In this document: piece after piece, positions 4,617 to 41,491 of the stretch | Layout of the letters: the number at the start of each line of letters is the position of its first letter | Position numbering within the stretch: position 1 is the stretch's first letter | NCBI GenBank assembly: GCA_947479815.1 | Contig: CANKAT010000019.1 | Span: 1-44,553 of the forward strand | Reading direction: 5' to 3' | From: Sphingobacteriaceae bacterium | GTDB taxonomy: Bacteria > Bacteroidota > Bacteroidia > Sphingobacteriales > Sphingobacteriaceae | DNA length: 44,553 nt | Notes under the pieces: model-generated | Seen by the model: the letters and a program-made list of their open reading frames with translations, nothing else | Databases searched by the model: none | What the model was told of the DNA's origin: nothing | Made by a program: the position numbers and the translations under genes

Positions 4617-6389
4617 ATGAAACTGAATTTCAATTCTATATTTTTCAAAAAACCTTTAGCTTACGGAGCAATCACTATACTTTCAATAGCGCTGCTCAGT
4701 CATACCCTAATGCAAAATGCAGGAGGCCTTCCTCCTTCTGATCCTAACAATGGTGGAATTACCCTTCCTGGTGGATTTGAAGCGGTAGTAGTTACGGATA
4801 GCATCGGTCCTGCAAGACACTTGGCAGTAAATGACAACGGAGATATTTATGTCAAACTAAGGTTTTCAGCAAAGGGAGGCAATGTAGCTTTACGGGATAC
4901 GGATAATGATGGAAAAGCAGATATTATTCAGCATTTTGGAAGCTATAAAGATGTTGGCAGTCTGGCTAATGGCATGCGTATCCATAAAGGATACCTATAC
5001 TATAGCTCTTCACTGGCCATTTACAGAAGCAAACTTACTCCGGGCAAACTGATTCCGGAAAGTGAGATGGAAACAGTGCTAACTGATGATCACGAACATG
5101 GCGCACACTGGCATATTACCAAGCCGGTTTCATTTGATGATAAAGGATTTATGTATGTTCCTTTTGGCACACCCTCCAATAACTGTATGGACATGGCAAA
5201 CACGCCTGGAGGAAAGCCTGGTCAACCAGGAATATTTCCATGTCCGGAACTTGAGCAGCATGCCGGAATCTGGCGTTTTGATGCTAATAAAACCGGACTC
5301 ACACAAAAAGACGGAACCTTATTTGCAACCGGTTTACGGAGTATTGTAGCTATGGATTGGAATAAGACAGATAAAAGTTTATATGTGCTTCAACATGGAA
5401 GAGATAATTTGCACCGCTTATTCCCTGAACTCTATACTGCCTGGCAAAGTGCAGTATTGCCATCAGAAGAGTTCTTGAAACTCAAGGAAGGCGATGATGC
5501 AGGCTGGCCATATTACTACTATGACCAAATGCAGAAAAAGAAATTAATGACCCCAGAATATGGAGGTGATGGTAAAAAAGAAGGAAAAGGAAAAGAACTG
5601 GCACAGCCATTAATTGGCTTTCCTGGGCACTGGGCACCAAATGACCTTTATTTTTACCAGGGAGATCAATTTCCTGCTCGATATAAAAACGGAGCTTTTA
5701 TCGCATTTCATGGTTCAACAAACCGTGCACCCTATCCACAAGCAGGCTACTTTGTAGCATTTATTCCATTCAAAAATGGTGCTCCTACTGGTGATTGGGA
5801 AGTATTTGCAGATGGTTTTGCAGGTGTAGATCCAATAGTGAACGTAAGAGATGCGATTTATCGGCCAATGGGAATTGCAATGGGACCCGATGGATCTTTA
5901 TACATCAGTGAGACTGAAAAAGGAAAAATCTGGCGTGTGATGTACAAAGGAGATAAAAAGAATTTCGGCACAGCACAACTGGCAGAGATGGAAAAACACA
6001 AACTACTTTCTCATATCCGCACACCTGATGCAGTAAAGGATAATCTAGAAAAAGGTAAGATCCCAGAAAAGGCAAAACTATACAATACCTACTGTGCTGC
6101 TTGTCACCAAAATGATGGAAAAGGAGATGGCAACCGCTTCCCTCCTCTTGGCGGAACAGATTGGGTAACTGGAGATAAAACAAAGTTATTGAATACTATA
6201 CTCAAAGGATTAAATGGAGAAATCGTAGTGAATGATAAACCCTACAACGGACAGATGCCGGCTCATAATTTCCTGAAAGATGAAGAAGTTGCTACTATTC
6301 TAACTTATATCAGACAAAGTTTTGGGAATACCGCATCAGCAATAAGTGTTGAGGAGGTAAAAGAATTTAGAAATAGTCAAAAAAAATAA
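4617..6389 (+). CDS. PQQ-type sugar dehydrogenase fused to cytochrome c
   Basis: Exported quinoprotein of 590 residues. A signal peptide or N-terminal anchor spans about residues 18-33. A six-bladed beta-propeller of the glucose/sorbosone dehydrogenase type follows (about 45-450), recognised by repeated strands such as GGFEAVVVTDS, LAVNDNGDIYVKL, GLRSIVAMDWN, ALYVLQHGRD-like and GIAMGPDGSLYISETEKGKI. At the C terminus is a class I cytochrome c domain with haem motif C493-A-A-C496-H497 and a likely axial Met in GQMPAH. Electrons from sugar or aldehyde oxidation would pass through the haem to the periplasmic chain. A close architectural relative is at 15095-16603. The SelA-like gene follows 157 bases downstream on the same strand. 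Substrate and PQQ dependence are inferred from family. Confidence 0.9.
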   Translation: MKLNFNSIFFKKPLAYGAITILSIALLSHTLMQNAGGLPPSDPNNGGITLPGGFEAVVVTDSIGPARHLAVNDNGDIYVKLRFSAKGGNVALRDTDNDGKADIIQHFGSYKDVGSLANGMRIHKGYLYYSSSLAIYRSKLTPGKLIPESEMETVLTDDHEHGAHWHITKPVSFDDKGFMYVPFGTPSNNCMDMANTPGGKPGQPGIFPCPELEQHAGIWRFDANKTGLTQKDGTLFATGLRSIVAMDWNKTDKSLYVLQHGRDNLHRLFPELYTAWQSAVLPSEEFLKLKEGDDAGWPYYYYDQMQKKKLMTPEYGGDGKKEGKGKELAQPLIGFPGHWAPNDLYFYQGDQFPARYKNGAFIAFHGSTNRAPYPQAGYFVAFIPFKNGAPTGDWEVFADGFAGVDPIVNVRDAIYRPMGIAMGPDGSLYISETEKGKIWRVMYKGDKKNFGTAQLAEMEKHKLLSHIRTPDAVKDNLEKGKIPEKAKLYNTYCAACHQNDGKGDGNRFPPLGGTDWVTGDKTKLLNTILKGLNGEIVVNDKPYNGQMPAHNFLKDEEVATILTYIRQSFGNTASAISVEEVKEFRNSQKK

Positions 6390-6546
6390 CAAAATTTAAT
6401 CGATTAATTCAATGAAACAGATGTAACATGAATACTACTTATATTAGTGTTAACTATTTACCTAAGTCATTAAATTAGAGAATTCTTTATTCAAGAATTA
6501 TAAAACCGTAAAAATCAATCTCAATATAACTTAAATAAATTATTCA

Positions 6547-8211
6547 ATGAAACGTAGAGACGTTATTAAAGGTCTGACATTGCTGCCATTAGCTGGCGGA
6601 GTTGTTGGAAGTGCTCAGGCTGCCATGGCTGCTCCAGCTGTTGCAGAAGGAGCAGGTCTTGCTGGTACTGCTTCAGCATCAGCATTATTAGGTCCTGAAG
6701 TGTATCGTGCACTTGGGGTAGAGCCGGTAATTAACTGCCGTGGTACCTTCACAATCATAGGTGCATCTACTTTAGTTCCTGAAGCTAAAGAAGCAATGTA
6801 CAATGCTCAATCAAACTATGTTCAATTAGATGAACTGGCAATGGGTGTTGGTAAAAAACTAGCAGAATTATCAGGCGCTGAATGGGGAGTGGTTTCCTGT
6901 GGTTGTGCAGGAGGAATAAAGATCAGTACAATAGCAGCGGTAACTGGTGGAAATCCTGAAAAGCTTGTCCGCGTACCTGATCTTACAGGGTTCGAAAAAA
7001 ATGAAGTAATCATCCCGCGTCATTCACGCAATACCTATGACCATGCTGTTCGTAATGTCGGAGTTAAGGTAGTGACTGTAGAAACACAAGAAGAACTGGA
7101 AGCCGCGATGAATTCTCGTACTGCAATGATCTATATGATGCCTACTACACCAGGTGATACTGGTCCACTTTCTGTTATTGCAATCTCAAAAGCAGCAAAA
7201 GCTAAAGGAGTACCTGTATTTGTAGATGCTGCTGCAGAAGCACTTACCTTAAAACCTAACGTACACCTTGCCGACGGAGCAACAGTTGTTGCTTACAGTG
7301 GTGGAAAGGCAATACGTGGTCCACAAAGTGCCGGATTATTATTAGGAGATAAGAAATTCTTAATGGCAACATGGCAGTCAAGCGCACCACACCACGGTGC
7401 AGGCCGTGATAACAAAGTTGGAAAAGAAGAGCAAATAGGAATGCTTGCCGCTGTTGAAGCTTGGACAAAACGTAACCATGCACAGGAAGAAATTGCCTGG
7501 ACAGGTTACCTTGAAACAATCTCAAAACGCGTTTCTGCAATTGCTGGTATTACCACTAAAATCCGTCAACCTGAAGGATTAGATAACCGTACTCCAAACC
7601 TGAATATTTCATGGGACCCATCAACGTTCAATGCAACAGGACAGGATATTGCCACTTATCTTTCAACAACTACTCCTCGTATTGCATTGAGTGCAGGTGG
7701 TGGTGGACGTGGTGCAGCAGGTGCTGCTAATTTAACTTCTATCAGTGTTGCTGCATTCATGATGCAACCAGGCGATGATAAAATCGTTGCTGAGCGTATT
7801 TTTGCAGCACTTTCTATGAAACGCCCACCTGTACCTGAAATGAAAGCTCCGGCAGCAGACATTAAAGGTCGTTGGGAAGTTACAGTTGAATACTTCAGAG
7901 AAACTAGCAAGCATACCTTCTTTATTGAACAACAAGATTCAAACTGGCTTAAAGGTTCTCATAAGAGTACATTTACGACCAATGAATTGGAAGGCACGAT
8001 AGAAGGTAATGAAGTAAAATTCAGAAGTGCATCAAAATTGTTAGCTGACAATGTTCCATTTACTTTCTCAGGAACACTTACTGGTGATTCCATGTCTGGA
8101 AATATCCATCATGGAGAATACCTGACATCGAAGTTCACTGCTAAGAAATATATTCAGCCAAGCAGTCGCCAGAAAATCGTTGTTCCTACTGGACCACCGC
8201 TTTCAAGCTAA
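6547..8211 (+). CDS. Exported SelA-like PLP enzyme with C-terminal beta domain
   Basis: 554-residue fold-type I PLP enzyme of the SelA / D-glucosaminate-6-phosphate ammonia-lyase group, not a true selenocysteine synthase. A Tat-like leader (MKRRDVIKGLTLLPLAGG) is followed by an Ala-rich segment to about residue 50. The catalytic core (about 55-420) includes INCRGTFTIIGAS, a Gly/Cys-rich cofactor loop VVSCGCAGGIK, VFVDAAAE (PLP-ring aspartate) and YSGGKAIRGPQSAG with Schiff-base Lys254. Residues about 440-540 are extra: a predicted lipocalin-like beta domain (GRWEVTVEYF, GTLTGDSMSGNI, GEYLTSKFTAKKY). Relatives eliminate ammonia from amino-sugar acids. The convergent RidA gene encodes a very similar leader, pointing to a shared periplasmic process. 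Exact substrate unknown. Confidence 0.85.
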   Translation: MKRRDVIKGLTLLPLAGGVVGSAQAAMAAPAVAEGAGLAGTASASALLGPEVYRALGVEPVINCRGTFTIIGASTLVPEAKEAMYNAQSNYVQLDELAMGVGKKLAELSGAEWGVVSCGCAGGIKISTIAAVTGGNPEKLVRVPDLTGFEKNEVIIPRHSRNTYDHAVRNVGVKVVTVETQEELEAAMNSRTAMIYMMPTTPGDTGPLSVIAISKAAKAKGVPVFVDAAAEALTLKPNVHLADGATVVAYSGGKAIRGPQSAGLLLGDKKFLMATWQSSAPHHGAGRDNKVGKEEQIGMLAAVEAWTKRNHAQEEIAWTGYLETISKRVSAIAGITTKIRQPEGLDNRTPNLNISWDPSTFNATGQDIATYLSTTTPRIALSAGGGGRGAAGAANLTSISVAAFMMQPGDDKIVAERIFAALSMKRPPVPEMKAPAADIKGRWEVTVEYFRETSKHTFFIEQQDSNWLKGSHKSTFTTNELEGTIEGNEVKFRSASKLLADNVPFTFSGTLTGDSMSGNIHHGEYLTSKFTAKKYIQPSSRQKIVVPTGPPLSS

Positions 8212-8231
8212 TTGCAATCCGAATAAATTTT

Positions 8232-8267
8232 AAAAGCCCCGATCTCCATGAGCTCGGGGCTTTTTTT
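8232..8267 (+). terminator. Rho-independent terminator after the SelA-like gene
   Basis: AGCCCCGA and TCGGGGCT form an 8-bp GC-rich stem with an 11-base loop, followed by TTTTTTT. It starts about 20 bases after the SelA-like stop and lies between convergent genes. The opposite strand has only a short T run, so it works mainly for the plus strand. Confidence 0.9.
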
Positions 8268-8305
8268 ATAGGGATAATGAACAAAATTTAGAATATTAAT
8301 TTCAA

Positions 8306-8797
8306 TCAATCGATATAAGCAACACAATCAATCTGTACTAATATTCCATCTTTTCCCATTTGATCTACACCACATCCACTGTAAGAACGTACAGGCTTTG
8401 GATCAGGAAAATAGTCGCCGTATACTTCATTAAGCGCTTTGATGTTCTTATTAGGTTCAGCCAAAGTCATGTGCACTTTCAAGACATTACCCATATTCGT
8501 TCCTGCTCGTTCCAACAGATCCTTCATCTGTTCCAATGCACTTTTGATTTGCACCTGAATATCTCCAGGTTCTTTTCTTCTATCTGCATACCAGCCGCCA
8601 ATACCACTTACAAAAACTAAATGTCCTGAACGAATGCATGCCGATAATGGGCTTGAGCTAGGATATTTACTTGGAATCGATACTTTTTTTGGTGTCCAGT
8701 CTGATTTTTGCTTGGACTCAGCTCCTGCAGTTTTTGCGCCTATGGCTCCAGCTAAGGGAAGGATTGTGAGACTTTTTAGAATTTCTCTTCTTTTCAT
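8306..8797 (-). CDS. Exported RidA/YjgF-family enamine/imine deaminase
   Basis: 163 residues with a Tat-like leader, MKRREILKSLTILPLAGA, cleaved probably near residue 26 (AGA). The rest is a full RidA domain: PLSACIRSGHLVFVSGIGG, QIKSALEQMKDLLERAGTNM, VLKVHMTL and VRSYSGCGVD. Arg137 matches the RidA arginine that binds the substrate carboxylate; the usual Glu of IEIEA is Asp157 (QIDCVA). RidA proteins hydrolyse reactive enamines/imines released by PLP enzymes and are normally cytoplasmic, so an exported form next to an exported PLP enzyme with a near-matching leader suggests joint action. Its upstream region is entirely heptad repeat, so its promoter must lie in that array or it is read through from the FAD oxidoreductase gene. 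Confidence 0.88.
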   Translation of the reverse strand: MKRREILKSLTILPLAGAIGAKTAGAESKQKSDWTPKKVSIPSKYPSSSPLSACIRSGHLVFVSGIGGWYADRRKEPGDIQVQIKSALEQMKDLLERAGTNMGNVLKVHMTLAEPNKNIKALNEVYGDYFPDPKPVRSYSGCGVDQMGKDGILVQIDCVAYID

Positions 8798-8800
8798 GAT

Positions 8801-9161
8801 TGAGATGTGAGATGTGAGATTTGAGATGTGAGATATGAGATATGAGATATGAGATATGAGATATGAGATATGAGATTTGAGATGTGAGATAGCAATATTT
8901 GCTTTTAGCTTTTAGCTTTCTGCTTTTAACTTATAACGGATATGAGATTGCACAATTTGCTTTTAATTTTTAACTTATAACCTATAACGGATATGAGATA
9001 TGAGATTTGAGATATGAGATTTGAGATATGAGATATGAGATTGCACAATTTGCTTTCACCTTTTAGCTTTTAGCTTTATGCTTTTAACTTAAAACCTAAA
9101 ACTTACAACCTAAAACTTACAACCTAAAACTTACAACCTAAAACCTACAACCTAAAACCTA
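8801..9161. repeat. Heptanucleotide repeat array filling the spacer
   Basis: Nearly the whole 361-base spacer is built from 7-bp units. 8801-8891 holds thirteen TGAGATN heptads without a break. 8900-8948 continues in units such as AGCTTTT, TGCTTTT, AACTTAT and AACGGAT. 8994-9042 holds seven more TGAGATN. 9095-9160 is a 14-bp (2 x 7) repeat CCTAAAACTTACAA, about 4.7 copies, running into the TAG stop of the FAD oxidoreductase gene at 9159-9161. Short blocks (TGCACAATTTGC) recur between segments. Confidence 0.93.
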
Positions 9162-10871
9162 CCTCCACTTCAACTCCACCCCTTGCCTCACAATAAATTC
9201 TTGGAACTCAGCAAGTAATTCTTTTCCTTCACGCACTTGTTTTGGGAAAACCTGTTTTTTTAGGGAATAAGTCACTAATAATCCAACGGCCTCTCCAATA
9301 CTCCATTCAACCGGATGCAGACGGTAGCAACCATTCGTGATATGTGTGGTGCCTATGTTTTTATTTGCAGGGATCAGGTTTTCCATTCGTATGGGAAGTA
9401 AAGAACCTAAAGGAATCTGGAAAGGTAATGATGAAAAATCGATATAATTATTTCCACGGCTGCTGGGGTGTAGATCAATATGGTAATAGCCGATACCTAC
9501 ACTGTCATAAAAATCGGCTGCGATCTTACCAGCAATAGGCCCAGCAACCTGTATTCGATTCTCTTGACCAACATGCTCTTCTAGAACTGTAAACTCAGCC
9601 TTAATACGTCTGGATTCACGAATATAAGGGTATTTTGCCAAGCCATCTTCTGTCCCCATTACATCTTTTCGTAAACGCAGACCAGGCCAACCCAGTTTCC
9701 CATCCGGCCGTGGTGCTTCAGTTTGAAGCCAATGAAATAAGGATAAGCTAAGCTGTTTTCCTCTTGCTACATGATGGTTGAACTCTTTCTGAGATACACC
9801 CACCAGGTTCCCAAGAGTATAATCATTCTGTGGCCAATTCACCGTAGAAATATCCCCTTTAAAAGCACCTGGGGTGAAATTTTCTTTGGCAAGGATGCGA
9901 CGGTAATTCCAAAGATTAAGATATGGATCTGTAGCGCTCCCATCAGGATTGAGTCCCAATGGTTTCTTTTCAAGCGTTTTGGGATTAGAATAACTCAAAT
10001 CAAGTAATTTACCCGGCCATGCAGGAGTCATTTTAGGCACCAAATTTCGCCAAAAATCGTATTCAGCTGGTTTATCGCCAACATTATTTGAACCAGGGAC
10101 ATAGTCCATAGAAAAACACATGGTAAATGCCTGCTGATTATCTGGGTCGGCTTTTAATGGTGCATGTAATTCATGCGTTTCATTTCTTGATTCAGTTCCC
10201 ATTACGAATTCAGTATTCGTCAATGGCAGTAATTCACCAGTTTCTGTAGCATCTACAAAGTAAGGGGCCACTAAAATTACTATGTGGCCCGATCTTAAAC
10301 TTTGAGCTCTTAGTGCTTTTACTTTATTTCCTGAATATTCTGCTGAGCTGATTTTATGCTCAATTAATAGTGTTAATCTGCCTGAACTTATAAAAGGGGC
10401 AAGCATATTATGCAAAACAGCTAGAGATACGCGAGGTTCATGGCAAAGCGCTGAAACCGTCGCATTACCAGGATTAAGTTTTGGCCTTGATTTTGCAACA
10501 TCTGTGATGGGGTAGTTGTTTTTGTAATATTCTCTAACCGCATTTCTATAATCACGATAGGCCTTTGGTGCACCATGAGTTTCGATCCAGGCATGTTCAT
10601 CTGGAGGTACTCCTTGCGAGGTGAGCTGGCCGCCGATCCAGTCGGTTTCCTCAGTCATAATCACATCCAGACCGTTTCTTAAAGCAGATAAAGCAGCTGC
10701 GCAGCCTCCTACACCTCCACCTGCGATCACCAGATTTGCAGATAGCTCAGATGATTTCTGTTCAATCGCAGCACTTGCAGCTAATGAAATATTGGGGAAT
10801 GAAGTTAAAGCTCCCGAAGCCAAGCCCGTGGCTCCTAGCCCTGTGAGACTTAAAAAATTTCTTCTTTTCAT
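9159..10871 (-). CDS. Exported FAD-dependent oxidoreductase (FAD_oxidored type)
   Basis: 570-residue flavoprotein with a Tat-like leader (MKRRNFLSLTGLGATGLASG, to about residue 33). The dinucleotide-binding motif AGGGVGG is at residues 50-56, followed by AALSALRNGLDVIMTEE and IGGQLTSQGVP, the hallmark of the FAD_oxidored (PF12831-like) family. The FAD-associated C-terminal motif is near NIGTTHITNGCYRLHPVEWS. Such proteins are abundant in polysaccharide-degrading Bacteroidota and probably oxidise or isomerise a sugar-derived hydroxyl, though few are characterised. Its ATG overlaps the stop of the MFS gene (ATGA at 10868-10871), so the two are translationally coupled. Tat export fits a protein folded with FAD before transport. 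The stop codon is inside a 14-bp tandem repeat. Confidence 0.87.
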   Translation of the reverse strand: MKRRNFLSLTGLGATGLASGALTSFPNISLAASAAIEQKSSELSANLVIAGGGVGGCAAALSALRNGLDVIMTEETDWIGGQLTSQGVPPDEHAWIETHGAPKAYRDYRNAVREYYKNNYPITDVAKSRPKLNPGNATVSALCHEPRVSLAVLHNMLAPFISSGRLTLLIEHKISSAEYSGNKVKALRAQSLRSGHIVILVAPYFVDATETGELLPLTNTEFVMGTESRNETHELHAPLKADPDNQQAFTMCFSMDYVPGSNNVGDKPAEYDFWRNLVPKMTPAWPGKLLDLSYSNPKTLEKKPLGLNPDGSATDPYLNLWNYRRILAKENFTPGAFKGDISTVNWPQNDYTLGNLVGVSQKEFNHHVARGKQLSLSLFHWLQTEAPRPDGKLGWPGLRLRKDVMGTEDGLAKYPYIRESRRIKAEFTVLEEHVGQENRIQVAGPIAGKIAADFYDSVGIGYYHIDLHPSSRGNNYIDFSSLPFQIPLGSLLPIRMENLIPANKNIGTTHITNGCYRLHPVEWSIGEAVGLLVTYSLKKQVFPKQVREGKELLAEFQEFIVRQGVELKWR

Positions 10872-12115
10872 AAACTTTCAGCTTTTGACTTGTAGCCATT
10901 AAGACCAAAGAAAACAATGTATAAATAACAAAGAACCGGAATCATAAATGCTATCGCCCATGTTGAGTGGTCTTTTAAATAACCTTGAGAAAATGAAATA
11001 ATTGCACCACCTGCAATAGCTGTTGATAATATTCCTGACGCTTTGGTGGTATATTTTCCCAATCCCTGAACGGAAAGTGCGAAAATAATCGCAAACATCA
11101 CTGAATTGAATAATCCTACTCCAATCATCAACCAAACAGCTAATGTACCGGAAGTATTTACAGAAAGAACTACCAGCACTATTGCTGCTGCGGCGCAAAT
11201 GGTAAGGACAATTGAAGGTTTTACTGTTTTCAAAAGGTAAGAACCAATCAGTCGCCCGAGCAGCATACCGCCCCAATAATAGGAAACATATGAATTTGCA
11301 TCTTCAACACCCATACTTAAGGTATCGGCGATGTAATTTGTCAAAAAAGTACCTATAGAAACTTCGGCACCTACATAAGCAAAAATAGCCCATGAACCAA
11401 AGTTCAGGTTACGGAAAGAGAAGATACTTCTTCTTTGTTCGGGAGTAGCCACAGTGCTTTCGGCACCGGTGCTAATCTTTGGTAGTTTCAAATTATAAAC
11501 TACCAAGGCAATGCAGATGAGCAAGGCTGCGATACCTAAATAAGGGTATTTTACCGCATCACTTGACGTACCTGATTCCTGTAATCTAGATAAAATAAAA
11601 TGTGCACCAAAAATAGGCGCGATGGTGGTTCCAATTGATCCTACTGCCTGAATCAGGGTAAGACGCGAAGATGCAGTTTTGGCCGGACCAAGTGCTGTAA
11701 TATAGGGGTTTGAAGCTACCTGTAATACCACAACACCTATCGCTAGCACAAATAATGCAGCCAGGAATAAATAATAAAGATGCATATCGGCAGCAGGATA
11801 AAATAATAAAGAACCAATTGCTGCGATTGCAAATCCAAGAACCATTCCATTCTTATAACCGATTTTTTCAACAATCATACCCGCTGGAAATGACATAAGA
11901 CCATAAGTCAAGAAAAAATAGAACTGAACCAGTGATGAATCTGCATAACTTAAGGTAAATCCCTCTTTGAAAAAAGGCACCAAAGTGTCGTTCAAACAGG
12001 TAATAAAACCGTTCATAAAATAAAGAACAGCGAGTGAGATGAGTGCGGGCATGTAATTCTGGCCCGAATTCTCCTGATCGGAAACTACACTGTTATGTAA
12101 AGGTATATTTGCCAT
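10868..12115 (-). CDS. FucP-type sugar MFS transporter
   Basis: 415-residue inner-membrane carrier with about twelve hydrophobic segments. ALISLAVLYFMNGFITCLND is the characteristic first helix of the fucose/glucose-galactose permease (FHS/GluP) branch of the major facilitator superfamily. ASNPYITALGPAKTASSRL in helices 4-5 is another typical stretch. It probably imports a monosaccharide or uronate by proton symport. It sits 68 bases after the epimerase gene stop and overlaps the FAD oxidoreductase start by four bases, so the three genes form a likely operon. Bacteroidota sialic-acid operons pair such a transporter with an AGE-family epimerase, but no N-acetylneuraminate lyase is present here, so the sugar remains open. 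Confidence 0.9.
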   Translation of the reverse strand: MANIPLHNSVVSDQENSGQNYMPALISLAVLYFMNGFITCLNDTLVPFFKEGFTLSYADSSLVQFYFFLTYGLMSFPAGMIVEKIGYKNGMVLGFAIAAIGSLLFYPAADMHLYYLFLAALFVLAIGVVVLQVASNPYITALGPAKTASSRLTLIQAVGSIGTTIAPIFGAHFILSRLQESGTSSDAVKYPYLGIAALLICIALVVYNLKLPKISTGAESTVATPEQRRSIFSFRNLNFGSWAIFAYVGAEVSIGTFLTNYIADTLSMGVEDANSYVSYYWGGMLLGRLIGSYLLKTVKPSIVLTICAAAAIVLVVLSVNTSGTLAVWLMIGVGLFNSVMFAIIFALSVQGLGKYTTKASGILSTAIAGGAIISFSQGYLKDHSTWAIAFMIPVLCYLYIVFFGLNGYKSKAESL

Positions 12116-12183: not shown

Positions 12184-13362
12184 TTATTTAGAATACTTTG
12201 CGTCTATCTTTTCTAAAGTTTTCCAGCATTGGAATAATCCTCTAGGAACATGAAAACAACCTTTCCATTTTCCTCCTTTAAGTGGAAGCAATACTTCTCC
12301 CCTACGGTTCAGATAACCATACCACTCGCCCTTTTCAGCATCCGGAAAATGGGCCCATGTGTAGTTATGAACCTTTACAAACCAATCCCAGCATCGCTGA
12401 TCGCCGGTATGGTGAAATCCTTTCAACAAACTGATTAAAGTTTCAATGTGAACCCACCATAATTTCTGATCCCATTCCAATTGCTGTGGAGGATGACCTT
12501 TCACGTCCATGAAATATAAAATTCCATCAAATTCCTTGTCCCATCCATATTCAAGAATGTTTAGGGTAATATCAACTGCTTTTTTAATGAGTGCCTGGTC
12601 ATTTCTGCGTTCGGCAATATCCATAATGAACCACATCGATTCTAGACCATGTCCCGGATTAACCAAACGTCCTTCAAAGGAATCAGAAAACGTACCATCT
12701 GGCTTCACATTTTCTAAAATAATGCCCAGATCTTCCTGATAAAATATATCCATCACTGAATGTATACCATCATTTATGGTCTTTTCAATTAAGTCTGTAT
12801 CCAAAAGATGTTCCAGTTCAAGAACCAGATTACAAAGAATCATTGGTAATGAAAAACCCTGTAAAGGCCGGGTGCCAGGATAGGCTTTATTATATTTTCC
12901 TTTCGGATCATCCTTTTTGCTAAGGATATTATTAAAGGTATCAATTGCAAGCTTGCCATATTCTTCTGTACCTGTAGCTCTGTAAAGCTGTGCAAAGGCC
13001 ATTGCGGCAAAGCAATCCGAAAAAATATTATAGGGCTGAATGAGCGGCTGACCTTCACGGGTGAGTGAAAAATAAAAATTACCATTTTCATCCTTTCCAT
13101 GTTTTTTCATGAATTCAGCACCCTGAACAGCAAAATCAAGCCATTCTTTTTTCTGATCCACCTGATTGTAAAGCATACTGAAGCACCACACCTGTCTGAA
13201 CTGCAACCATGCAAATTTATCAGTATCAAATACATTGCCATCACGATCAATACAGGTAAAAAAACCTCCAAATTCCCTATCTCCTGAGTTTTTTAACCAA
13301 AATGGAATAACATCTTTTAAAAGATTGTCTTGATATTTTTCTGCGTATTGTCTGTAATTCAT
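12184..13362 (-). CDS. AGE-family (N-acylglucosamine 2-epimerase-like) sugar epimerase/isomerase
   Basis: 392-residue cytoplasmic (alpha/alpha)6-barrel protein of the N-acylglucosamine 2-epimerase family. Family signatures in order: WLKNSGDREFGGFFTCIDRD, QFRQVWCFSMLYN, FSDCFAAMAFAQLYR, NPGHGLESMWFIMDI (active-site His), WWVHIETLISLL and CFHVPRGLFQCW (second active-site His). A longer frame reaches a TTG at 13395, but the ATG at 13362 (MNYRQYAEKY) fits the family start better. Members interconvert ManNAc/GlcNAc, mannose/glucose or cellobiose epimers, and sequence alone does not decide among them. First gene of the operon with the MFS transporter and FAD oxidoreductase, so it likely processes the imported sugar. 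Confidence 0.88.
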   Translation of the reverse strand: MNYRQYAEKYQDNLLKDVIPFWLKNSGDREFGGFFTCIDRDGNVFDTDKFAWLQFRQVWCFSMLYNQVDQKKEWLDFAVQGAEFMKKHGKDENGNFYFSLTREGQPLIQPYNIFSDCFAAMAFAQLYRATGTEEYGKLAIDTFNNILSKKDDPKGKYNKAYPGTRPLQGFSLPMILCNLVLELEHLLDTDLIEKTINDGIHSVMDIFYQEDLGIILENVKPDGTFSDSFEGRLVNPGHGLESMWFIMDIAERRNDQALIKKAVDITLNILEYGWDKEFDGILYFMDVKGHPPQQLEWDQKLWWVHIETLISLLKGFHHTGDQRCWDWFVKVHNYTWAHFPDAEKGEWYGYLNRRGEVLLPLKGGKWKGCFHVPRGLFQCWKTLEKIDAKYSK

Positions 13363-13505
13363 GAGTTTAGCTTTAAGATCATAGCAATTGTGCAATTGGT
13401 CTATAATTTTTCCCTAAATAATAGAAAATTTACAAGAAAAGCCAATTGTTTTGGTATAATCGAAGAAAAATATACTCGAATTATTCTTAACGGATATAAT
13501 GAAAA

Positions 13506-15094: not shown

Positions 15095-16603
15095 TTATTT
15101 ATTCAAAGATGCCCTAACCTGCTTAACTAGCTCTGGCTTAATTGGAACTGCATGGCTCGATCCCATGGAACGTATATAAGTTAAAATATCCAAGAGATCT
15201 TCATCTTTCATAAAAGCGAAAGAGGGCATAACTGAATCATAGATAACTCCATTAATAGTTGCCGGACCGGTTGAACCTATCAAAATCTTTTTAATCAGCT
15301 CTTTTGGATTAAGAACCACGGTTTGTGAATTTTGTAAGGAGGGAAAAGTACCCTTAACACCTAAACCATTTTCCTTATGGCATGAGGCACAATATTGAAG
15401 ATATAAGGTTTCAGCTTTTGAACCTGCCGCCATCGAAGAAAGTGAATTTTGAGGATCAGATTTACTTAGATTGGAGATCTTAATTATTCGATCATCTTCA
15501 GGCCTAGGAAAACCTGCTACCGGATTCCAGTCGCGGTTACTCGTTGCTAGGTAAATATCGCCAGCAGGAGAAACACATAGATCTCTGATCCTACCAAATT
15601 TGTTTTCGAAATAGATATCTTCAGTAAGTATTTTTTTACCCTGAGCATCCAATTTAAGTGCTCTTAAGCTCTTCCCTTTTAAGGAAACCAGTAAGAGTGA
15701 ATTCTTTAATCCCGGAATCTTATCTGAAGCATAATAATCAAGACCCGCAGGACCAATGGTGGGAGTCCAAGCTTTTAATGGGTCAACTGTACTATTCAAG
15801 CCCTTGAATGAAGTTTCGGCATCACTTTCTGCAATACCCTGAACTGTAGGCCAGCCATAATTTCTGTTTTTACTAATTAGATTTACCTCATCATCATTGG
15901 TGTCGCCATGTTCTGAGGTATAGAGTTGGCCACTTTTTGAGAATGCCATTCCCTGTATATTGCGGAAGCCCCATGCCCAAACAGGATTTCCCTTCATTGG
16001 ATTATCAGCAGGGACAGAACCATCAATATTCATTCTTAAAATCTTGCCATTAGGTGTTTTAGGATCCTGAGAATCAACCAGACTCATGGCATCGCCGGTA
16101 GCCCAATAAACCAAACCATCGTTAACTACAATTCTTGATCCATTATGGCCTAAAGCAGCCGGAATTTCCATCAGTACCATTGGACTCAATAGTGTATCTT
16201 TTTGCCAGGTATAACGAACCAAACGAGAATATTTCTTATTGTTTTTTTCAATGGTATAATCCAAAAAAACGTATGGATTTTTCTTCATGTCGGAATGAAG
16301 CGCCATACCAAGCAGACCACTTGTACGCAACTGCCAAACATCAGTTAGCTTAAGTAAAATTTCCTTACTTCCTGTAATTGGGTCTATCCTACTAATCAGA
16401 CCTTGTTGTTCAGCAATCCATATCTTATTATCCGGACCCCAAGCAATTTCCCAAGGCACATTCAAGTTTTGCGCTACTGTTTTCACCACTGTACTTTCCT
16501 GCCTTGTATTAATTGGCTGATCCTTAATAAAGCTTTTAGGAAGCACAAAAAAGTATCCGAGAATTCCAATAGCTAAAATAAAATTGATTAGGATATACTT
16601 CAT
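15095..16603 (-). CDS. PQQ-type sugar dehydrogenase fused to cytochrome c (second copy)
   Basis: 502-residue exported quinoprotein. An N-terminal signal or anchor spans residues about 2-20 (YILINFILAIGILGYFFVLP). The glucose/sorbosone-dehydrogenase propeller covers about 40-375: LNVPWEIAWGPDNKIWIAEQ, GLLGMALHSD, ALGHNGSRIVVNDGLVYWATG, NPVWAWGFRNIQGMAF, LYTSEHGDTNDDEVN and NYGWPTVQG. This is closer to classical Asd/soluble glucose dehydrogenase than the 4617-6389 protein. A cytochrome c domain follows, with C405-A-S-C408-H409 and a likely axial Met in SVMPSF. It probably oxidises an aldose and feeds the periplasmic electron chain. Single gene; no PQQ biosynthesis genes are in the window. Substrate unknown. 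Confidence 0.92.
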   Translation of the reverse strand: MKYILINFILAIGILGYFFVLPKSFIKDQPINTRQESTVVKTVAQNLNVPWEIAWGPDNKIWIAEQQGLISRIDPITGSKEILLKLTDVWQLRTSGLLGMALHSDMKKNPYVFLDYTIEKNNKKYSRLVRYTWQKDTLLSPMVLMEIPAALGHNGSRIVVNDGLVYWATGDAMSLVDSQDPKTPNGKILRMNIDGSVPADNPMKGNPVWAWGFRNIQGMAFSKSGQLYTSEHGDTNDDEVNLISKNRNYGWPTVQGIAESDAETSFKGLNSTVDPLKAWTPTIGPAGLDYYASDKIPGLKNSLLLVSLKGKSLRALKLDAQGKKILTEDIYFENKFGRIRDLCVSPAGDIYLATSNRDWNPVAGFPRPEDDRIIKISNLSKSDPQNSLSSMAAGSKAETLYLQYCASCHKENGLGVKGTFPSLQNSQTVVLNPKELIKKILIGSTGPATINGVIYDSVMPSFAFMKDEDLLDILTYIRSMGSSHAVPIKPELVKQVRASLNK

Positions 16604-16955: not shown

Positions 16956-18587
16956 ATGGATAGACGTAGTTTCATTATCGCCAATACTCATACAAAATCT
17001 CCTGAATTTAGAACAAATGCTGGATTATCTCCTTATTCTCCTCCTATTGGTAACGCTGAACTGATTCATCTATTGAGGCGAGTGCTTTTTGGTGTAAAAC
17101 CTGCTGACATCTCCAAAGTAAAAGGTAAATCTCTGAATGACGTTCTCGATATGCTATTCATTGCAGATCCTACTCCTGATCCTCCAGTTAATAATTACAA
17201 TACTACTTCCTATACCGACCCAGTTGTTCCATTAGGCCAGAGTTGGGTTACAGCTCCTAATGATGGGAACGCTACAGGTTATAGAAATTCATCATTCAAA
17301 TCATGGTGGACTGGACTGATGCTGAATCAGAATACCTCCATTCATGAAAAAATGGTATTATTCTGGCATAATCACTTTGCCACTGAAACTGTTGACATTA
17401 ATGACGCCAGATATTCTTACAAGCATAATGTATTATTGAGGACTTTCGCCCTTGGCAATTTCAAATCCATGGTAAAAGAGATCACCCTTGACCCAGGAAT
17501 GCTAAGGTACCTTAATGGCTATTTGAACAATAAAACCAGCCCTGACGAAAACTACGCAAGAGAATTACAAGAGTTATTTACTCTAGGAAAAGGCCCGAAG
17601 TCAAATTATACTGAAAGTGATGTAAAACAAGCTGCAAAAGTATTGACTGGATATACAGTCAATGCAACAACTATTACTTCTGCCTTTGACTCTACTAAGC
17701 ACGATACCGGAAATAAACAGTTTTCCTCGTTTTACAATAACATAGTAATTACGGGAAAAACAGGTGCTGCGGGTGCTACCGAGTTAGATGAGTTGATCAA
17801 TATGATTTTTCAGCAGCCAGAAACCGCTCTTTATATTTGTCGAAGATTGTATCGATTTTTCGTTTATTATGAAATTGATGAAGCCACAGAAACAAATTTG
17901 ATTGCACCCCTTGCTGCACTTTTCAGAAGTAATAATTATGAAATAAAGCCCGTTTTAAAGGCACTATTCAGTAGTGAACATTTCTATGACCCCGTTAACC
18001 GTGCTTGTATGATCAAGGGGCCTCTTGACTATTGTATCGGATTATGTAGGGAGTTCAATGTAGTTTTTCCGCTTTCAACAGATACAGTGAATCTGTACTA
18101 CATGCATGAGTATATCCGGACACAAGCTTCAAATATGCAGCAAAATCTGGGCGATCCACCAAATGTTGCAGGATGGGCTGCCTATTATCAGGAGCCCCAG
18201 TTTCATAAGTTATGGATCAATGCAGATACGCTACCAAGGCGTAGCCAATTTAGCGATACTATGATTGGAAATGGTTATACCAGAAATGGAAAAAATATAA
18301 CTATTGATATCCTTTCTTTTGTTGACAGTTTATCAAATCCTGCAGACCCAAATATTCTAATAACCGATAGTCTTTCCATAATTTACGCGATCGATATCTC
18401 AAAAGAAGTGCAAGATTTTCTGAAAAGTATACTTCTTTCCGGACAGTCAACTGATTCATATTGGACTGCTGCATGGGTAACTTATAAAGCAAATGTGAAT
18501 AATACAGCTAACAAAACAATTGTACTTACACGCTTAAAGTCTATGTTTAAATACCTTATGAACCTTTCTGAATATCAGCTATCATGA
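16956..18587 (+). CDS. DUF1800 family protein
   Basis: 543 residues, clearly DUF1800. Signatures: ELIHLLRRVLFGVKPADI near the N terminus, WTGLMLNQNTSIHEKMVLFWHNHF, LRTFALGNFKSMVKEITLDP, GMLRYLNG, ENYARELQELFTLG, VKQAAKVLTGYTV, ICRRLYRFFVYYEI and the C-terminal QNLGDPPNVAGWAAY. The function of DUF1800 is unknown. Genes for it are commonly next to DUF1501 genes, as here: the stop overlaps the next ATG by four bases. The N terminus MDRRSFIIA looks like the start of a Tat leader, but no hydrophobic segment follows, so the export route is unclear. The pair is probably one transcriptional unit. Confidence 0.92.
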   Translation: MDRRSFIIANTHTKSPEFRTNAGLSPYSPPIGNAELIHLLRRVLFGVKPADISKVKGKSLNDVLDMLFIADPTPDPPVNNYNTTSYTDPVVPLGQSWVTAPNDGNATGYRNSSFKSWWTGLMLNQNTSIHEKMVLFWHNHFATETVDINDARYSYKHNVLLRTFALGNFKSMVKEITLDPGMLRYLNGYLNNKTSPDENYARELQELFTLGKGPKSNYTESDVKQAAKVLTGYTVNATTITSAFDSTKHDTGNKQFSSFYNNIVITGKTGAAGATELDELINMIFQQPETALYICRRLYRFFVYYEIDEATETNLIAPLAALFRSNNYEIKPVLKALFSSEHFYDPVNRACMIKGPLDYCIGLCREFNVVFPLSTDTVNLYYMHEYIRTQASNMQQNLGDPPNVAGWAAYYQEPQFHKLWINADTLPRRSQFSDTMIGNGYTRNGKNITIDILSFVDSLSNPADPNILITDSLSIIYAIDISKEVQDFLKSILLSGQSTDSYWTAAWVTYKANVNNTANKTIVLTRLKSMFKYLMNLSEYQLS

Positions 18588-20176
18588 AAAGAAGGGATTT
18601 TATAAGACATACAGCACCCGCAGGAATTGTATTTCCCGCACTGATCAATGGATTTACTTTTAAAGCCTTTGCAGAGTCGCCTCTAGTTTCTGCCCTTACA
18701 CAGGCTCCAACAGAAACTGACCATGTATTAGTTATTGTTCAACTAAATGGAGGAAATGATGGACTAAATATGGTTATCCCAATAGACCAATACGATAATC
18801 TAAGCAATGCCCGTTCAAACATCATTATTCCAAGAAATAAAATCTTAAAATTAAACGGTACAAGTTTCACCGGTTTGCATCCTTCAATGACAGGGCTGCA
18901 AACTATGTTTAATGATGAAAAACTAAAGATCGTTCAGTCAGTTGGATATCCACAACCCAATTTTTCACATTTCAGGGCCACAGATATTTGGCTTAGTGCT
19001 TCTGATTCGAATCAAATAATCAATTCAGGATGGGCAGGGCGTTATTTAAATGAAGAATATACTAACTTCCCAACAGGATATCCAAGCAGTGTAATGCCTG
19101 ACCCTCTGGCTATTCAGATTGGATCATTTGTTTCACCTGCTATGCAGGGGCCAGGAGTAAACATGGGAATGGCAATTTCAGACCCTGTTAATTTTTACAA
19201 CCTGATCAATGGAATACAGGGAACGGCCCCAAATACCAGGGGAGGAAAGGAACTAACCTATATACGGCAGATCGCTCAACAAACTCAGCAATATGCCTCG
19301 GTGATCAAAGGAGCAGCAGCAAAAGTAACTAAGCAGTTTTCAGGTTATCCTACAGGGAATAGTCTTGCAGATCAATTGAAAATAGTTGCACGCTTGATTG
19401 CAGGTGGCTTAAAAACAAGGATATACATGGTAAGCCTTGGAGGATTTGACACCCATGCCCAACAGGTTAATTCAAATGCCACTGAAACCGGAACACATGC
19501 AATCTTGATGCAAAAAGTTTCAGAAGGAATCAAAGCATTTATGGATGATCTAGAATTTCTTAATTCAAGTAAAAGGGTAATCGGAATGACCTTTTCTGAA
19601 TTTGGAAGACGGATCAAATCCAATTCGAGCGGAGGTACTGATCATGGAGCAGCAGCTCCCCTATTTGTTTTTGGACATTATGCCCAGAATGATGTATCAG
19701 GTACTAGTCCAATTATTAATTTAACTACTGGCACAGCAGACAATATACCCATGCAATATGATTTTCGATCCATTTATGCAGCAATTTTGCAGCAGTGGTT
19801 CTGTGTTCCTGAAACAACTCTTGAAAATGTTATGCTCAAGAACTTCCAGAATATACCAGTGATTAAAAAGTCAGCTCCCTGCATGTCAAGCAGTCCTGAT
19901 TTAATAATCGCAAATGCTGGAAAAAACATTATCAGCAATTATCCGAATCCTTTCCAAACATCTACCACTATCTCTTATGAAAGTTCAGGTGGACATACCC
20001 TTATACAAGTGTTTAATACAGAAGGCAGATTGATCAAAACACTGGTTGATGCTGTTATAAATTCAGGAAATCACAAGATCACCTTTGAAAATGAAGGATA
20101 TTTACCTGGGGTTTATTATGCAAGGTTACAGAACAATACTATTCAGCAGATCAGAACAATGTTACTGGTCAATTAA
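18584..20176 (+). CDS. DUF1501 family protein with T9SS sorting domain
   Basis: 530 residues. A Tat-like leader (MKRRDFIRHTAPAGIVFP) is followed by a DUF1501 domain (alkaline-phosphatase/sulfatase-like fold) from about 45 to 430: VLVIVQLNGGNDGLNMVIP, LHPSMTGLQTMF, VQSVGYPQPNFSHFRATDIW, VSLGGFDTHAQQ, FSEFGRRIKSNSSGGTDHGA. The last 80 or so residues form a type A type-IX secretion domain: ISNYPNPFQTSTTISYE, LIQVFNTEGRLIKTL, LPGVYYARLQNN and MLLVN. The protein should therefore cross the inner membrane and then be exported to the cell surface through T9SS. Translationally coupled to the DUF1800 gene. The biochemical role of the pair is not known. Confidence 0.93.
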   Translation: MKRRDFIRHTAPAGIVFPALINGFTFKAFAESPLVSALTQAPTETDHVLVIVQLNGGNDGLNMVIPIDQYDNLSNARSNIIIPRNKILKLNGTSFTGLHPSMTGLQTMFNDEKLKIVQSVGYPQPNFSHFRATDIWLSASDSNQIINSGWAGRYLNEEYTNFPTGYPSSVMPDPLAIQIGSFVSPAMQGPGVNMGMAISDPVNFYNLINGIQGTAPNTRGGKELTYIRQIAQQTQQYASVIKGAAAKVTKQFSGYPTGNSLADQLKIVARLIAGGLKTRIYMVSLGGFDTHAQQVNSNATETGTHAILMQKVSEGIKAFMDDLEFLNSSKRVIGMTFSEFGRRIKSNSSGGTDHGAAAPLFVFGHYAQNDVSGTSPIINLTTGTADNIPMQYDFRSIYAAILQQWFCVPETTLENVMLKNFQNIPVIKKSAPCMSSSPDLIIANAGKNIISNYPNPFQTSTTISYESSGGHTLIQVFNTEGRLIKTLVDAVINSGNHKITFENEGYLPGVYYARLQNNTIQQIRTMLLVN

Positions 20177-37895: not shown

Positions 37896-39281
37896 TTAGC
37901 GTACTGGTGCCGGCCCTGCTGGTTGTGAAATTCCATCTAAATCATAAACAACATTTCCGGCTCTTAAAGTCATTTCAGTTTGAAATCGTTGAGATCCTTC
38001 AATTTTACCGCCTCTTACAGGCCATCCATATTTACCGTTAGTGATCTTAAATATCGCAATATCCGCTACAGATCCCTGAGAAAGATTTCCCAATTCTTCA
38101 CGTTTAATTGCTTGAGCAGGTTTCCATGTGCTTGCCGCGATCACCTCTTTAAGTGGCATTCCGGTTGCCATAAATAAACCCATGATATTTTCCATGCTTT
38201 TCATCGGGCCATTCATACTACCTGTATGGAGGTCTGTACTAATGGTATTTGGATAAAAACCTGCCTTTATAGCCGGAACACCTTGGTTATACAGGTAACT
38301 ACCTCCACCAAAACCAATATCAAAGATCACTCCTTTTTCTCTGGCCTTGTAAACAAATGGCTTTACTTTACCATTCATATCCACAATAGATTCTCTTCCA
38401 TTTGGGCTATCCGTACCATTTCCACCAAAAGCATGGGTATAAATATCCCCTTTACGGAACTTTACATTAAATAATGAATCAAGAGGCAAAAATGGATCTG
38501 CAGAACCAAAATCAACCATGATTGGAATATTTGCAAGCTTTCCGGCTTCAATTGCACGGTCAGTTGGAACCCAAGTACGTCCTCCAAAGTGTGCCAGTTT
38601 AACTCCAACAATATCATGAGGATATTTTTTAGCCATCTCAGCAGTTTTCTGAGGATCCATTTCATCAATATTGCTCTCACCTGCTCCATCCATTCCTGTT
38701 CCAACAATGTTCAACATTGCTAATACTCGGGTTTGAGAAGCATCGATGGTTCGCTTTTTATACAATTCAAAATCTCTCCAGCCTGTACAACCTGCATCAA
38801 CTACGGTAGTTACTCCGGTACGGAAAGTAAAACCATCTGCTGGTAATGCTGTTGCTGCATTTTTCAAATAACTACCATCATGCCCCCAGAAAAAATGTAC
38901 ATGAAGATCAATCAAACCCGGAGTTACATATAAACCCTTAGCATCGATAATCTTATCGGCCAAATCAGGATTAATATTTTTAGCTACTAGCGCCACTTTA
39001 CCTTCTGATGCAGGAATAGCAGCACGGGCAGGCATAGCAGGACGAGCAGGGCGGCCATTTGCTGCCGGACGCTCAGGCATTGCAGGGCGAGCAGCTTGTG
39101 CACGTGTTCCTGAAGTAACTGCGATATCAATTATTTCATCAATATTGTTTTTCGGATCAATCACATGACCCCCTTTAATAATATAACTATAAGGCTTACC
39201 TGAAGGAGCGGCAGGCTGTTGAGCGCTGGCGTTCAATCCAAATATGAAAAGGGATAAGAATACAAATAGATTTTTTTTCAT
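37896..39281 (-). CDS. Exported amidohydrolase/deacetylase-type metallohydrolase 1
   Basis: 461-residue exported member of the amidohydrolase superfamily. Signal peptide 1-20 (FVFLSLFIFGLNASA). Domain start GGHVIDPKNNIDE, then H127-x-H129 (GLIDLHVHFFWG), a carboxylated-Lys candidate K228 (DIVGVKLAHFGG), strand-6 His in DIYTHAFGG and catalytic Asp in ISTDLHTGS. Strand 5, normally M-V-H, reads MVDFGS, so a ligand His is Asp. Residues 60-92 are an Ala/Pro/Arg-rich insertion (RPAMPERPAANGRPARPAMP and on) absent from the paralogue at 40172. Motif order (VIFDIGFGGGS, GDIYTHAFGG) resembles the amidohydrolase/deacetylase family often encoded beside SelA-like ammonia-lyases. Substrate not known. Confidence 0.88.
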   Translation of the reverse strand: MKKNLFVFLSLFIFGLNASAQQPAAPSGKPYSYIIKGGHVIDPKNNIDEIIDIAVTSGTRAQAARPAMPERPAANGRPARPAMPARAAIPASEGKVALVAKNINPDLADKIIDAKGLYVTPGLIDLHVHFFWGHDGSYLKNAATALPADGFTFRTGVTTVVDAGCTGWRDFELYKKRTIDASQTRVLAMLNIVGTGMDGAGESNIDEMDPQKTAEMAKKYPHDIVGVKLAHFGGRTWVPTDRAIEAGKLANIPIMVDFGSADPFLPLDSLFNVKFRKGDIYTHAFGGNGTDSPNGRESIVDMNGKVKPFVYKAREKGVIFDIGFGGGSYLYNQGVPAIKAGFYPNTISTDLHTGSMNGPMKSMENIMGLFMATGMPLKEVIAASTWKPAQAIKREELGNLSQGSVADIAIFKITNGKYGWPVRGGKIEGSQRFQTEMTLRAGNVVYDLDGISQPAGPAPVR

Positions 39282-40171: not shown

Positions 40172-41491
40172 ATGAAAAAATACGCATCACTTTTTATTGC
40201 TCTTCTTTTACTCGGCAGCAATACAATTGCTCAGCAATCTCAACCCGCTGAATCAAGCAAACCCTATAGCATTATCATTAAGGGTGGTCATGTAATTGAC
40301 CCAAAAAATAACATTGACGAGGTAATGGATATTGCCATTAACTCTACTCAGGGTAATCAAAACGCGCGGACAGCTAATGCTGTAGAAGGTAAAATTGCTC
40401 TGATAGCAAAGAATATTGATTCCAATCTAGGTGTAAAAGTGATTGATGCTAAAGGCATGGTTGTAACTCCAGGAATTATCGACCTTCACGTGCATGTTTT
40501 TTCAGGAACTAATCTGAAACAAGAGTATATGAATGGACCCAGTTCTGTTTGGCCTGATGGCTTTACCTTTCGTTCTGGCGTAACTACAGTTGGCGATGCT
40601 GGCAGTTCAGGATGGCGAACTTTTCCTGAATTCAAGAAGAATATCATTGACAAATCACAAACAAGGGTTCTTGTATTTTTAAATATTGTTGGTGATGGAA
40701 TGGGCCAGAATCAACAGAATGTGAATGATATGGATCCCAATATGGCGGCTCAAGTTGCTATAGCCAATAAAAAAGATGTAGTTGGTTTTAAATCTGCTCA
40801 TTTTGGTGGAAATCCATTTATACCATTGGATAGCGCGGTAAAAGCAGGAAATATCGCAAATATGCCTGTCATGTTAGATTTAACCTATCCTTCAAAACCG
40901 GCTATCAGTTCAGTTGAAGATCTGTTTATGAAACATCTTAGACCTGGCGATATTTTTACTCATATGTACCGATTGACCTTCCCTTTTTTCTATGTGAATG
41001 ATCAAGTTTCGCCATTAGCAGTTGCAGCACAAAAAAGAGGAATACTTTTCGATATTGGGCATGGTGGCAATGGATTTACATTTGCCCGTGCAATTCCCTC
41101 TGTAAAACAGGGATTTGTACCGTATTCCATAAGCTCCGACTTGCATATTTCAAGTATGAATGCAGGAATGAAGGACATGTCAAATATTATGTCCAAATTT
41201 TTAAATATGGGGATGCCTCTAAAGGATGTTATTTTACGATCAACCTGGAATCCAGCCAAGGAAATAAAAAGAGAAGAACTGGGTAATCTTTCTGTAGGAT
41301 CGGTAGCAGATATCGCAATATTCACCTTGAAAAAAGGAAATTTCGGATTTATTGATTCACATAACTACCTACTTAAAGGAACACAAAAGCTGGAAACAGA
41401 ATTAACGATTCGTTCCGGAAAAATAGTGTATGATTTAAATGGTCTTGGAGGGAGAACTGATAAAGAAAGTACAATTTTAACTATCAAATAA
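40172..41491 (+). CDS. Exported amidohydrolase/deacetylase-type metallohydrolase 2
   Basis: 439-residue paralogue of the protein at 37896-39281. Signal peptide 1-20 (YASLFIALLLLGSNTIA). Shared blocks: IIKGGHVIDPKNNIDE, H106-x-H108 (GIIDLHVHVF), PDGFTFRSGVTTVGDAGSSG, K207 (DVVGFKSAHFGG), GDIFTHMYRLTF, GILFDIGHGGNGF, ISSDLHISSMN, and a C terminus EELGNLSVGSVADIAIF. Strand 5 is VMLDLTYP, again with Asp where a ligand His is expected. It lacks the Ala/Pro/Arg insertion. The GILFDIGHGGNGF and DIFTH stretches are typical of the amidohydrolase/deacetylase group. The duplication with divergent loops suggests two substrates. Export makes hydrolysis of a periplasmic N-acyl or ester compound likely. Confidence 0.88.
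   Translation: MKKYASLFIALLLLGSNTIAQQSQPAESSKPYSIIIKGGHVIDPKNNIDEVMDIAINSTQGNQNARTANAVEGKIALIAKNIDSNLGVKVIDAKGMVVTPGIIDLHVHVFSGTNLKQEYMNGPSSVWPDGFTFRSGVTTVGDAGSSGWRTFPEFKKNIIDKSQTRVLVFLNIVGDGMGQNQQNVNDMDPNMAAQVAIANKKDVVGFKSAHFGGNPFIPLDSAVKAGNIANMPVMLDLTYPSKPAISSVEDLFMKHLRPGDIFTHMYRLTFPFFYVNDQVSPLAVAAQKRGILFDIGHGGNGFTFARAIPSVKQGFVPYSISSDLHISSMNAGMKDMSNIMSKFLNMGMPLKDVILRSTWNPAKEIKREELGNLSVGSVADIAIFTLKKGNFGFIDSHNYLLKGTQKLETELTIRSGKIVYDLNGLGGRTDKESTILTIK

Follow-up and report, generated by a model that had tools for sequence, protein, structure and literature searches.

Could an amino sugar be oxidized and deaminated before it reaches the cytoplasm? This question is raised by three neighbouring genes in a 44,553-nt stretch of DNA from a Sphingobacteriaceae bacterium (contig CANKAT010000019.1), which as a whole is called the window here. 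Amino-sugar catabolism is usually viewed as uptake, phosphorylation and deamination in the cytoplasm, and a noncytoplasmic location is almost unknown for PLP enzyme and imine hydrolase chemistry. A sequence-only reading had interpreted the three gene products as exported enzymes of amino-sugar oxidation and deamination. The ORFs that it had delimited were recovered exactly:

4617..6389, + strand: PQQ-type sugar-dehydrogenase propeller (GSDH/AA12-like) with a C-terminal cytochrome c fusion, predicted to be exported (590 aa)
6547..8211, + strand: SelA/DgaE-like PLP enzyme with a Tat leader and an extra C-terminal domain (554 aa), proposed hexosaminate ammonia-lyase
8306..8797, - strand: RidA with a Tat leader (163 aa), proposed to hydrolyze an enamine/imine after the PLP enzyme; convergent with the other two genes

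The three family calls are borne out by profiles and conserved residues. In a family profile search, the dehydrogenase narrowly passes as a GSDH (PF07995, 28.7 bits, cut-off 25), and its cytochrome c domain is above cut-off (PF00034, 46.8 bits). The CxxCH motif (residues 493-497) is unchanged in an alignment of 11 relatives. The structural model is poor (pLDDT 61); its top matches are AA12 PQQ sugar dehydrogenases, followed by Asd and sGDH. With 18 bits, the AA12 profile PF22807 stays below its cut-off of 30.9, and the AA12 likeness is a fold match only. H166, R241 and R416 are conserved, with no residue-level match to any PQQ-bound structure.

The SelA-like protein is found by the DgaE-family profile TIGR01437 (E 6.6e-45, 153.6 bits, under the curated cut-off of 385.3 bits) and by NF047797 (DgaE; 146.3 bits, below the 600-bit cut-off). 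Its model is of moderate confidence (pLDDT 72). The top Foldseek match is 7lc0, a D-glucosaminate-6-phosphate ammonia-lyase (TM 0.82, normalised to the target), followed by Cap15 (8t7j) and then by SelA. The PLP lysine K254 (SGGK) and the twin arginines R3 and R4 are kept in every one of 24 homologues. According to the model, the long form of the protein carries an additional all-beta C-terminal domain (about residues 441-534). RidA is assigned by PF01042 (59.6 bits, cut-off 27.3). Its conserved Rid arginine, R137, is invariant and is also visible in PDB alignments; the assignment was made by alignment against an E. coli-type RidA sequence.

The SelA-like protein has an RR motif followed by a hydrophobic stretch, and the genome codes for TatC; the protein is thus a predicted Tat substrate. 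All three window proteins look exported, as judged from their predicted leaders. The leaders of SelA and RidA had been described as nearly identical. They agree in 12 of 18 residues and 39 of 54 bases, and the likeness ends directly past the leader (14/42). Because 15 of the 54 leader bases differ, recent copying of the leader from one gene to the other was rejected. What stands is a predicted leader of common type, and this is not special to the pair: the pattern 'MKRR..LK.L..LPLAG' is found on many other SelA and RidA paralogues of the same genome. We applied a simple leader rule to the homologues. It is a crude rule, with a background Tat rate of 25/335 among other ORFs and one cytoplasmic-looking RidA scored as Tat; it assigns Tat leaders to 81/81 SelA homologues. 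Some export leader is assigned to RidA (45/46), amidohydrolase (67/68), dehydrogenase (30/31), SMP-30 (18/18) and RraA (19/19), and none to KDG kinase (0/4) or KDPG aldolase (0/6).

The neighbourhood held up when other genomes were compared. Two sets of loci were used, one of 41 loci chosen by SelA similarity and one of 19 loci chosen solely by SelA profile. Bacteroidota loci repeatedly bring dehydrogenase, SelA and RidA together, and almost every one of these proteins carries an export signal. In Daejeonella, the order is dehydrogenase, SelA, RidA (opposite strand), FAD enzyme, transporter and epimerase; the order SelA, RidA, FAD, MFS, AGE is kept in L010, L011, L013-L015, L017 and L020. Several Daejeonella loci have two or three amidohydrolases immediately upstream. 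The window carries the last three of these genes as follows:

9159..10871, - strand: FAD-dependent oxidoreductase with a Tat leader (PF12831, 306.6 bits), syntenic with SelA and RidA in Daejeonella
10868..12115, - strand: MFS sugar transporter of GluP/FucP/NagP type (TIGR01272, 286.8 bits, above cut-off; NagP, 195 bits, below cut-off)
12184..13395, - strand: N-acyl-D-glucosamine 2-epimerase (NF052547 equivalog, 720.3 bits, cut-off 600)

The epimerase and the NagP/FucP-type transporter next to the window genes agree with an N-acetylhexosamine, without fixing which one. Between RidA and the FAD oxidoreductase, 7- and 14-base tandem repeat arrays (TGAGATA; AACTTACAACCTAA) fill the intergenic space (8801-9162).

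The fullest gene run was found in Flavobacteria (L043). It consists of SusCD, a NagX-like transferase, a GH20 hexosaminidase, the dehydrogenase, an SMP-30 lactonase, an amidohydrolase, SelA, RidA, RraA, a DUF4440 protein, a BASS transporter, KDG kinase and KDPG aldolase. Export signals are seen on the enzymes between the dehydrogenase and RraA, both included, but not on the kinase and the aldolase. Having GH20, the NagX-like protein, KDG kinase and KDPG aldolase in one gene run supports the proposed oxidation and deamination of an amino sugar. The gluconolactonase and the amidohydrolase/deacetylase steps had been missed by the sequence-only reading, and their presence in the set implies an N-acetylated substrate.

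Among the 19 profile-picked loci, 14 have an amidohydrolase near SelA, 12 have RidA there, 9 the dehydrogenase and 8 SMP-30. In the 11 other genomes of this set, 22 of 68 RidA genes have SelA at a distance of 5 kb or less (expectation 0.42), and such proximity occurs in all 11. Four relatives without SelA have two to three RidA apiece. The trait is scattered, occurring in 7 of 296 sampled Bacteroidota, and many Dyadobacter loci are partial, with the amidohydrolase alone or nothing recognisable beside SelA. On a plasmid of the acidobacterium Granulicella, RraA, SelA, RidA, a second SelA, an amidohydrolase, a different lactonase and a BBE (FAD) enzyme are found together, most of them with leaders. 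As read from these genes, the same steps would be covered, with the BBE (FAD) enzyme standing in for the PQQ dehydrogenase and the other lactonase for ring opening. The three window genes are thus members of a gene set found repeatedly in Bacteroidota and also in one acidobacterium.

The genome that contains the window (3.2 Mb) codes for 14 SelA-like proteins, 18 NF006689-type amidohydrolases and 11 RidA loci. Within 5 kb of a SelA gene are 13 of the 18 amidohydrolases (0.66 expected, p about 1e-15) and 5 of the 11 RidA loci (0.40 expected, p about 3e-5). Dehydrogenases of the window kind number four, three of them within 8 kb of a SelA gene. The SelA clusters also contain SusC/SusD pairs, SMP-30, RraA, BASS and one KDPG aldolase. 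GH20 is present, and KDG kinase adjoins KDPG aldolase on a contig other than the window (C95). The 14 SelA paralogues suggest several substrates. Next to the window SelA itself there is no amidohydrolase, lactonase or BASS gene. Two amidohydrolases of the type that adjoins SelA elsewhere are encoded 30 kb away on the same contig:

37896..39281, - strand: amidohydrolase/deacetylase (NF006689, 379.9 bits, cut-off 371), predicted to be exported, proposed N-deacetylase
40172..41491, + strand: second amidohydrolase/deacetylase (NF006689, 386.8 bits), predicted to be exported, with conserved metal-ligand motifs (HxH, TH, D)

We consider it likely that the set encodes an oxidative route outside the cytoplasm, with an N-acetylated amino sugar as substrate, probably N-acetylglucosamine or another N-acetylhexosamine. 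Sequence shows which genes are present and that they occur together, and also their leaders, folds and conserved catalytic residues; from these we infer the substrate, the order of steps and activity in the periplasm. SusCD would take up the substrate across the outer membrane, and GH20 would release the hexosamine. The cytochrome-linked PQQ-type dehydrogenase is proposed to oxidize C1 of the (N-acetyl)amino sugar, yielding the lactone, which a lactonase (SMP-30 in the fuller loci) would open to the aldonic acid. Removal of the acetyl group would then fall to the secreted amidohydrolase. The SelA/DgaE-like enzyme would bind its PLP while still in the cytoplasm, since the Tat system allows it to fold with the cofactor there. 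Outside, it would eliminate water across C2-C3, and RidA would hydrolyze the resulting enamine/imine to ammonia and 2-keto-3-deoxygluconate (or its epimer). After import of the 2-keto-3-deoxy acid (BASS transporter in the fuller loci), KDG kinase would phosphorylate it and KDPG aldolase would cleave it, as in the Entner-Doudoroff steps. A variant of this scheme appears unlikely, namely that the entire route is nonphosphorylated and proceeds outside the cytoplasm. In that case, the exported RraA-like protein, which is of the 4-hydroxy-2-oxo-acid aldolase family, would split the 2-keto-3-deoxy acid into pyruvate and an aldehyde, BASS would import the keto acid, and the 14 SelA copies would be specialised by amino sugar.

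The weak GSDH score and the poor model of the dehydrogenase leave some room for a propeller that lacks PQQ and acts on another substrate, so that the exported route would begin at an aldonic acid made elsewhere. No PqqE above cut-off and no PQQ synthesis gene were found in a search of the genome. Own PQQ synthesis was therefore dropped, and PQQ may be scavenged or the cofactor may be a different one. Against a PQQ-free propeller, the top structural matches are all PQQ dehydrogenases, its profile matches AA12, and a cytochrome c domain is fused. Furthermore, other SelA clusters carry an unmistakable GSDH (310.6 bits). We therefore regard such a propeller as rather unlikely. An LPMO as the source of the aldonic acid was rejected, as the genome has no PF03067 match.

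The set might instead degrade N-acylated D-amino acids, for example those derived from peptidoglycan. The amidohydrolase would deacylate, the SelA-like enzyme would deaminate a beta-hydroxy D-amino acid, and RidA would hydrolyze a product of the 2-aminoacrylate type. An M19 dipeptidase in one SelA cluster (contig C16, see below) fits this. So does the COG3964 enzyme Atu3266, presumably 2ogj and thus a relative of the amidohydrolases described here, which reportedly acts weakly on N-acetyl-D-serine and far better on acetyl-(R)-mandelate. The PLP enzyme OngC of a related pathway also deaminates D-serine and D-threonine (PMC9537276). However, D-amino acid degradation has no place for a sugar dehydrogenase, a lactonase, GH20, NagX, KDG kinase and KDPG aldolase, and we find it improbable.

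Just as improbable in our view is a Cap15-like role for the exported PLP enzyme, in which it would act as an oxidase or decarboxylase that depends on oxygen and RidA would handle its imine product. Cap15 belongs to the SelA family, so that another PLP reaction is possible; it is the second-best match by sequence and structure, and the periplasm is accessible to oxygen. However, the ammonia-lyase 7lc0 is clearly ahead in sequence score (125.7 bits versus 81.3 bits for 8t7j), and KDG kinase and KDPG aldolase downstream suit an eliminating lyase. Finally, that unrelated exported enzymes came together by accident within a sugar-rich locus is very improbable: RidA is on the other strand and the window SelA has no adjoining lactonase or set transporter, but the gene order is conserved in Daejeonella, the association elsewhere is strong, and the association tests in this genome and in 11 others reject it.

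The preferred amino-sugar route follows the same chemical logic as the Ong pathway of Pseudoalteromonas for oxidized chitin, which also combines a deacetylase, a PLP deaminase, RidA and KDG kinase. That pathway converts N-acetylglucosaminic acid to KDG-6-phosphate after TonB-dependent uptake (PMC9537276, PMC12017989), and growth on GlcNAc1A needs the deacetylase (OngB), the PLP deaminase (OngC), RidA (OngD) and KdgK together (PMC9537276). The Ong enzymes are predicted to be cytoplasmic, whereas those of the present set are predicted to be exported. OngC belongs to PLP fold type III and OngB is D-aminoacylase-like; their counterparts here have the SelA/DgaE fold and are NF006689 amidohydrolases. 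The aldonic acid of the Ong pathway comes from an LPMO, whereas the present set has its own dehydrogenase and lactonase. An Ong-like linkage of RidA and KDG kinase to deacetylase and PLP enzyme is seen as one gene run in Flavobacteria, while the KDG kinase of the present genome is on another contig.

Individual components can be compared in a similar way. With DgaE (7lc0), the SelA-like protein shares the fold, the PLP lysine and the predicted elimination of ammonia from a glucosaminate; it differs by its predicted Tat export, an expected unphosphorylated substrate, the extra C-terminal beta domain (long form) and scores below the family cut-offs. The amidohydrolases match the NF006689 family above cut-off but, in contrast to cytoplasmic COG3964-type enzymes (NF006689; TIGR03583/EF_0837), they are predicted to be secreted and have many paralogues. 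The RidA proteins match the RidA/YjgF enamine-imine deaminases in family and arginine; they carry a Tat or Sec leader, and their partner enzyme is predicted to be outside the cytoplasm. Pseudomonas PvdN is a Tat-exported periplasmic PLP enzyme, as is predicted here, but it functions in pyoverdine maturation and is not known to belong to a catabolic gene set. In a literature search that covered mainly openly accessible papers, an exported SelA/RidA amino-sugar module was nowhere described.

If the proposal is true, an exported route would feed electrons into the respiratory chain and free ammonia outside the inner membrane, with PLP lyase chemistry and RidA protection at work in the periplasm. 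It would also provide a testable function for large gene groups in Bacteroidota of soil, freshwater and sea that are annotated as selenocysteine synthase, dihydroorotase, adenine deaminase or translation inhibitor.

Several minor observations were made along the way.

(a) SelA-like relatives with about 33-35% identity, annotated as hypothetical proteins, are encoded on Rhizobium and Sinorhizobium plasmids (L086, L087). The surrounding genes are those of a phosphonate set (PEP mutase, aminotransferase, CDP-alcohol phosphatidyltransferase). These relatives were therefore rejected as members of the same system, and a different use of the fold is indicated.

(b) Contig C16 (L050, L051) contains three SelA and four amidohydrolase genes, alternating with an M19 dipeptidase, a CBM9 protein, SusCD and KDPG aldolase.

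(c) Additional exported Rid-family proteins are encoded in this genome away from SelA (C1 27042-27964, C31 1837-2912 and C53 6102-7136; L084, L082 and L083). Among the SelA-distant Rid proteins, two have a Tat leader, two are lipoprotein-like, and one of 398 aa has three Rid domains and a Sec-like leader.

(d) The window encodes one more dehydrogenase of GSDH type, again with cytochrome c at the C-terminus (15095-16603, - strand; PF07995, 239 bits); no SelA gene adjoins it. Elsewhere in the window, a DUF1800 protein and, after it, a Tat-leader protein of DUF1501 appearance (16956-20176) form a common pair.

(e) The window also codes for a BNR/Asp-box (sialidase-like) protein (41594-42790, - strand). 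A similar-looking protein is placed between RidA and the FAD enzyme in one Daejeonella locus (L017:16117-17157).
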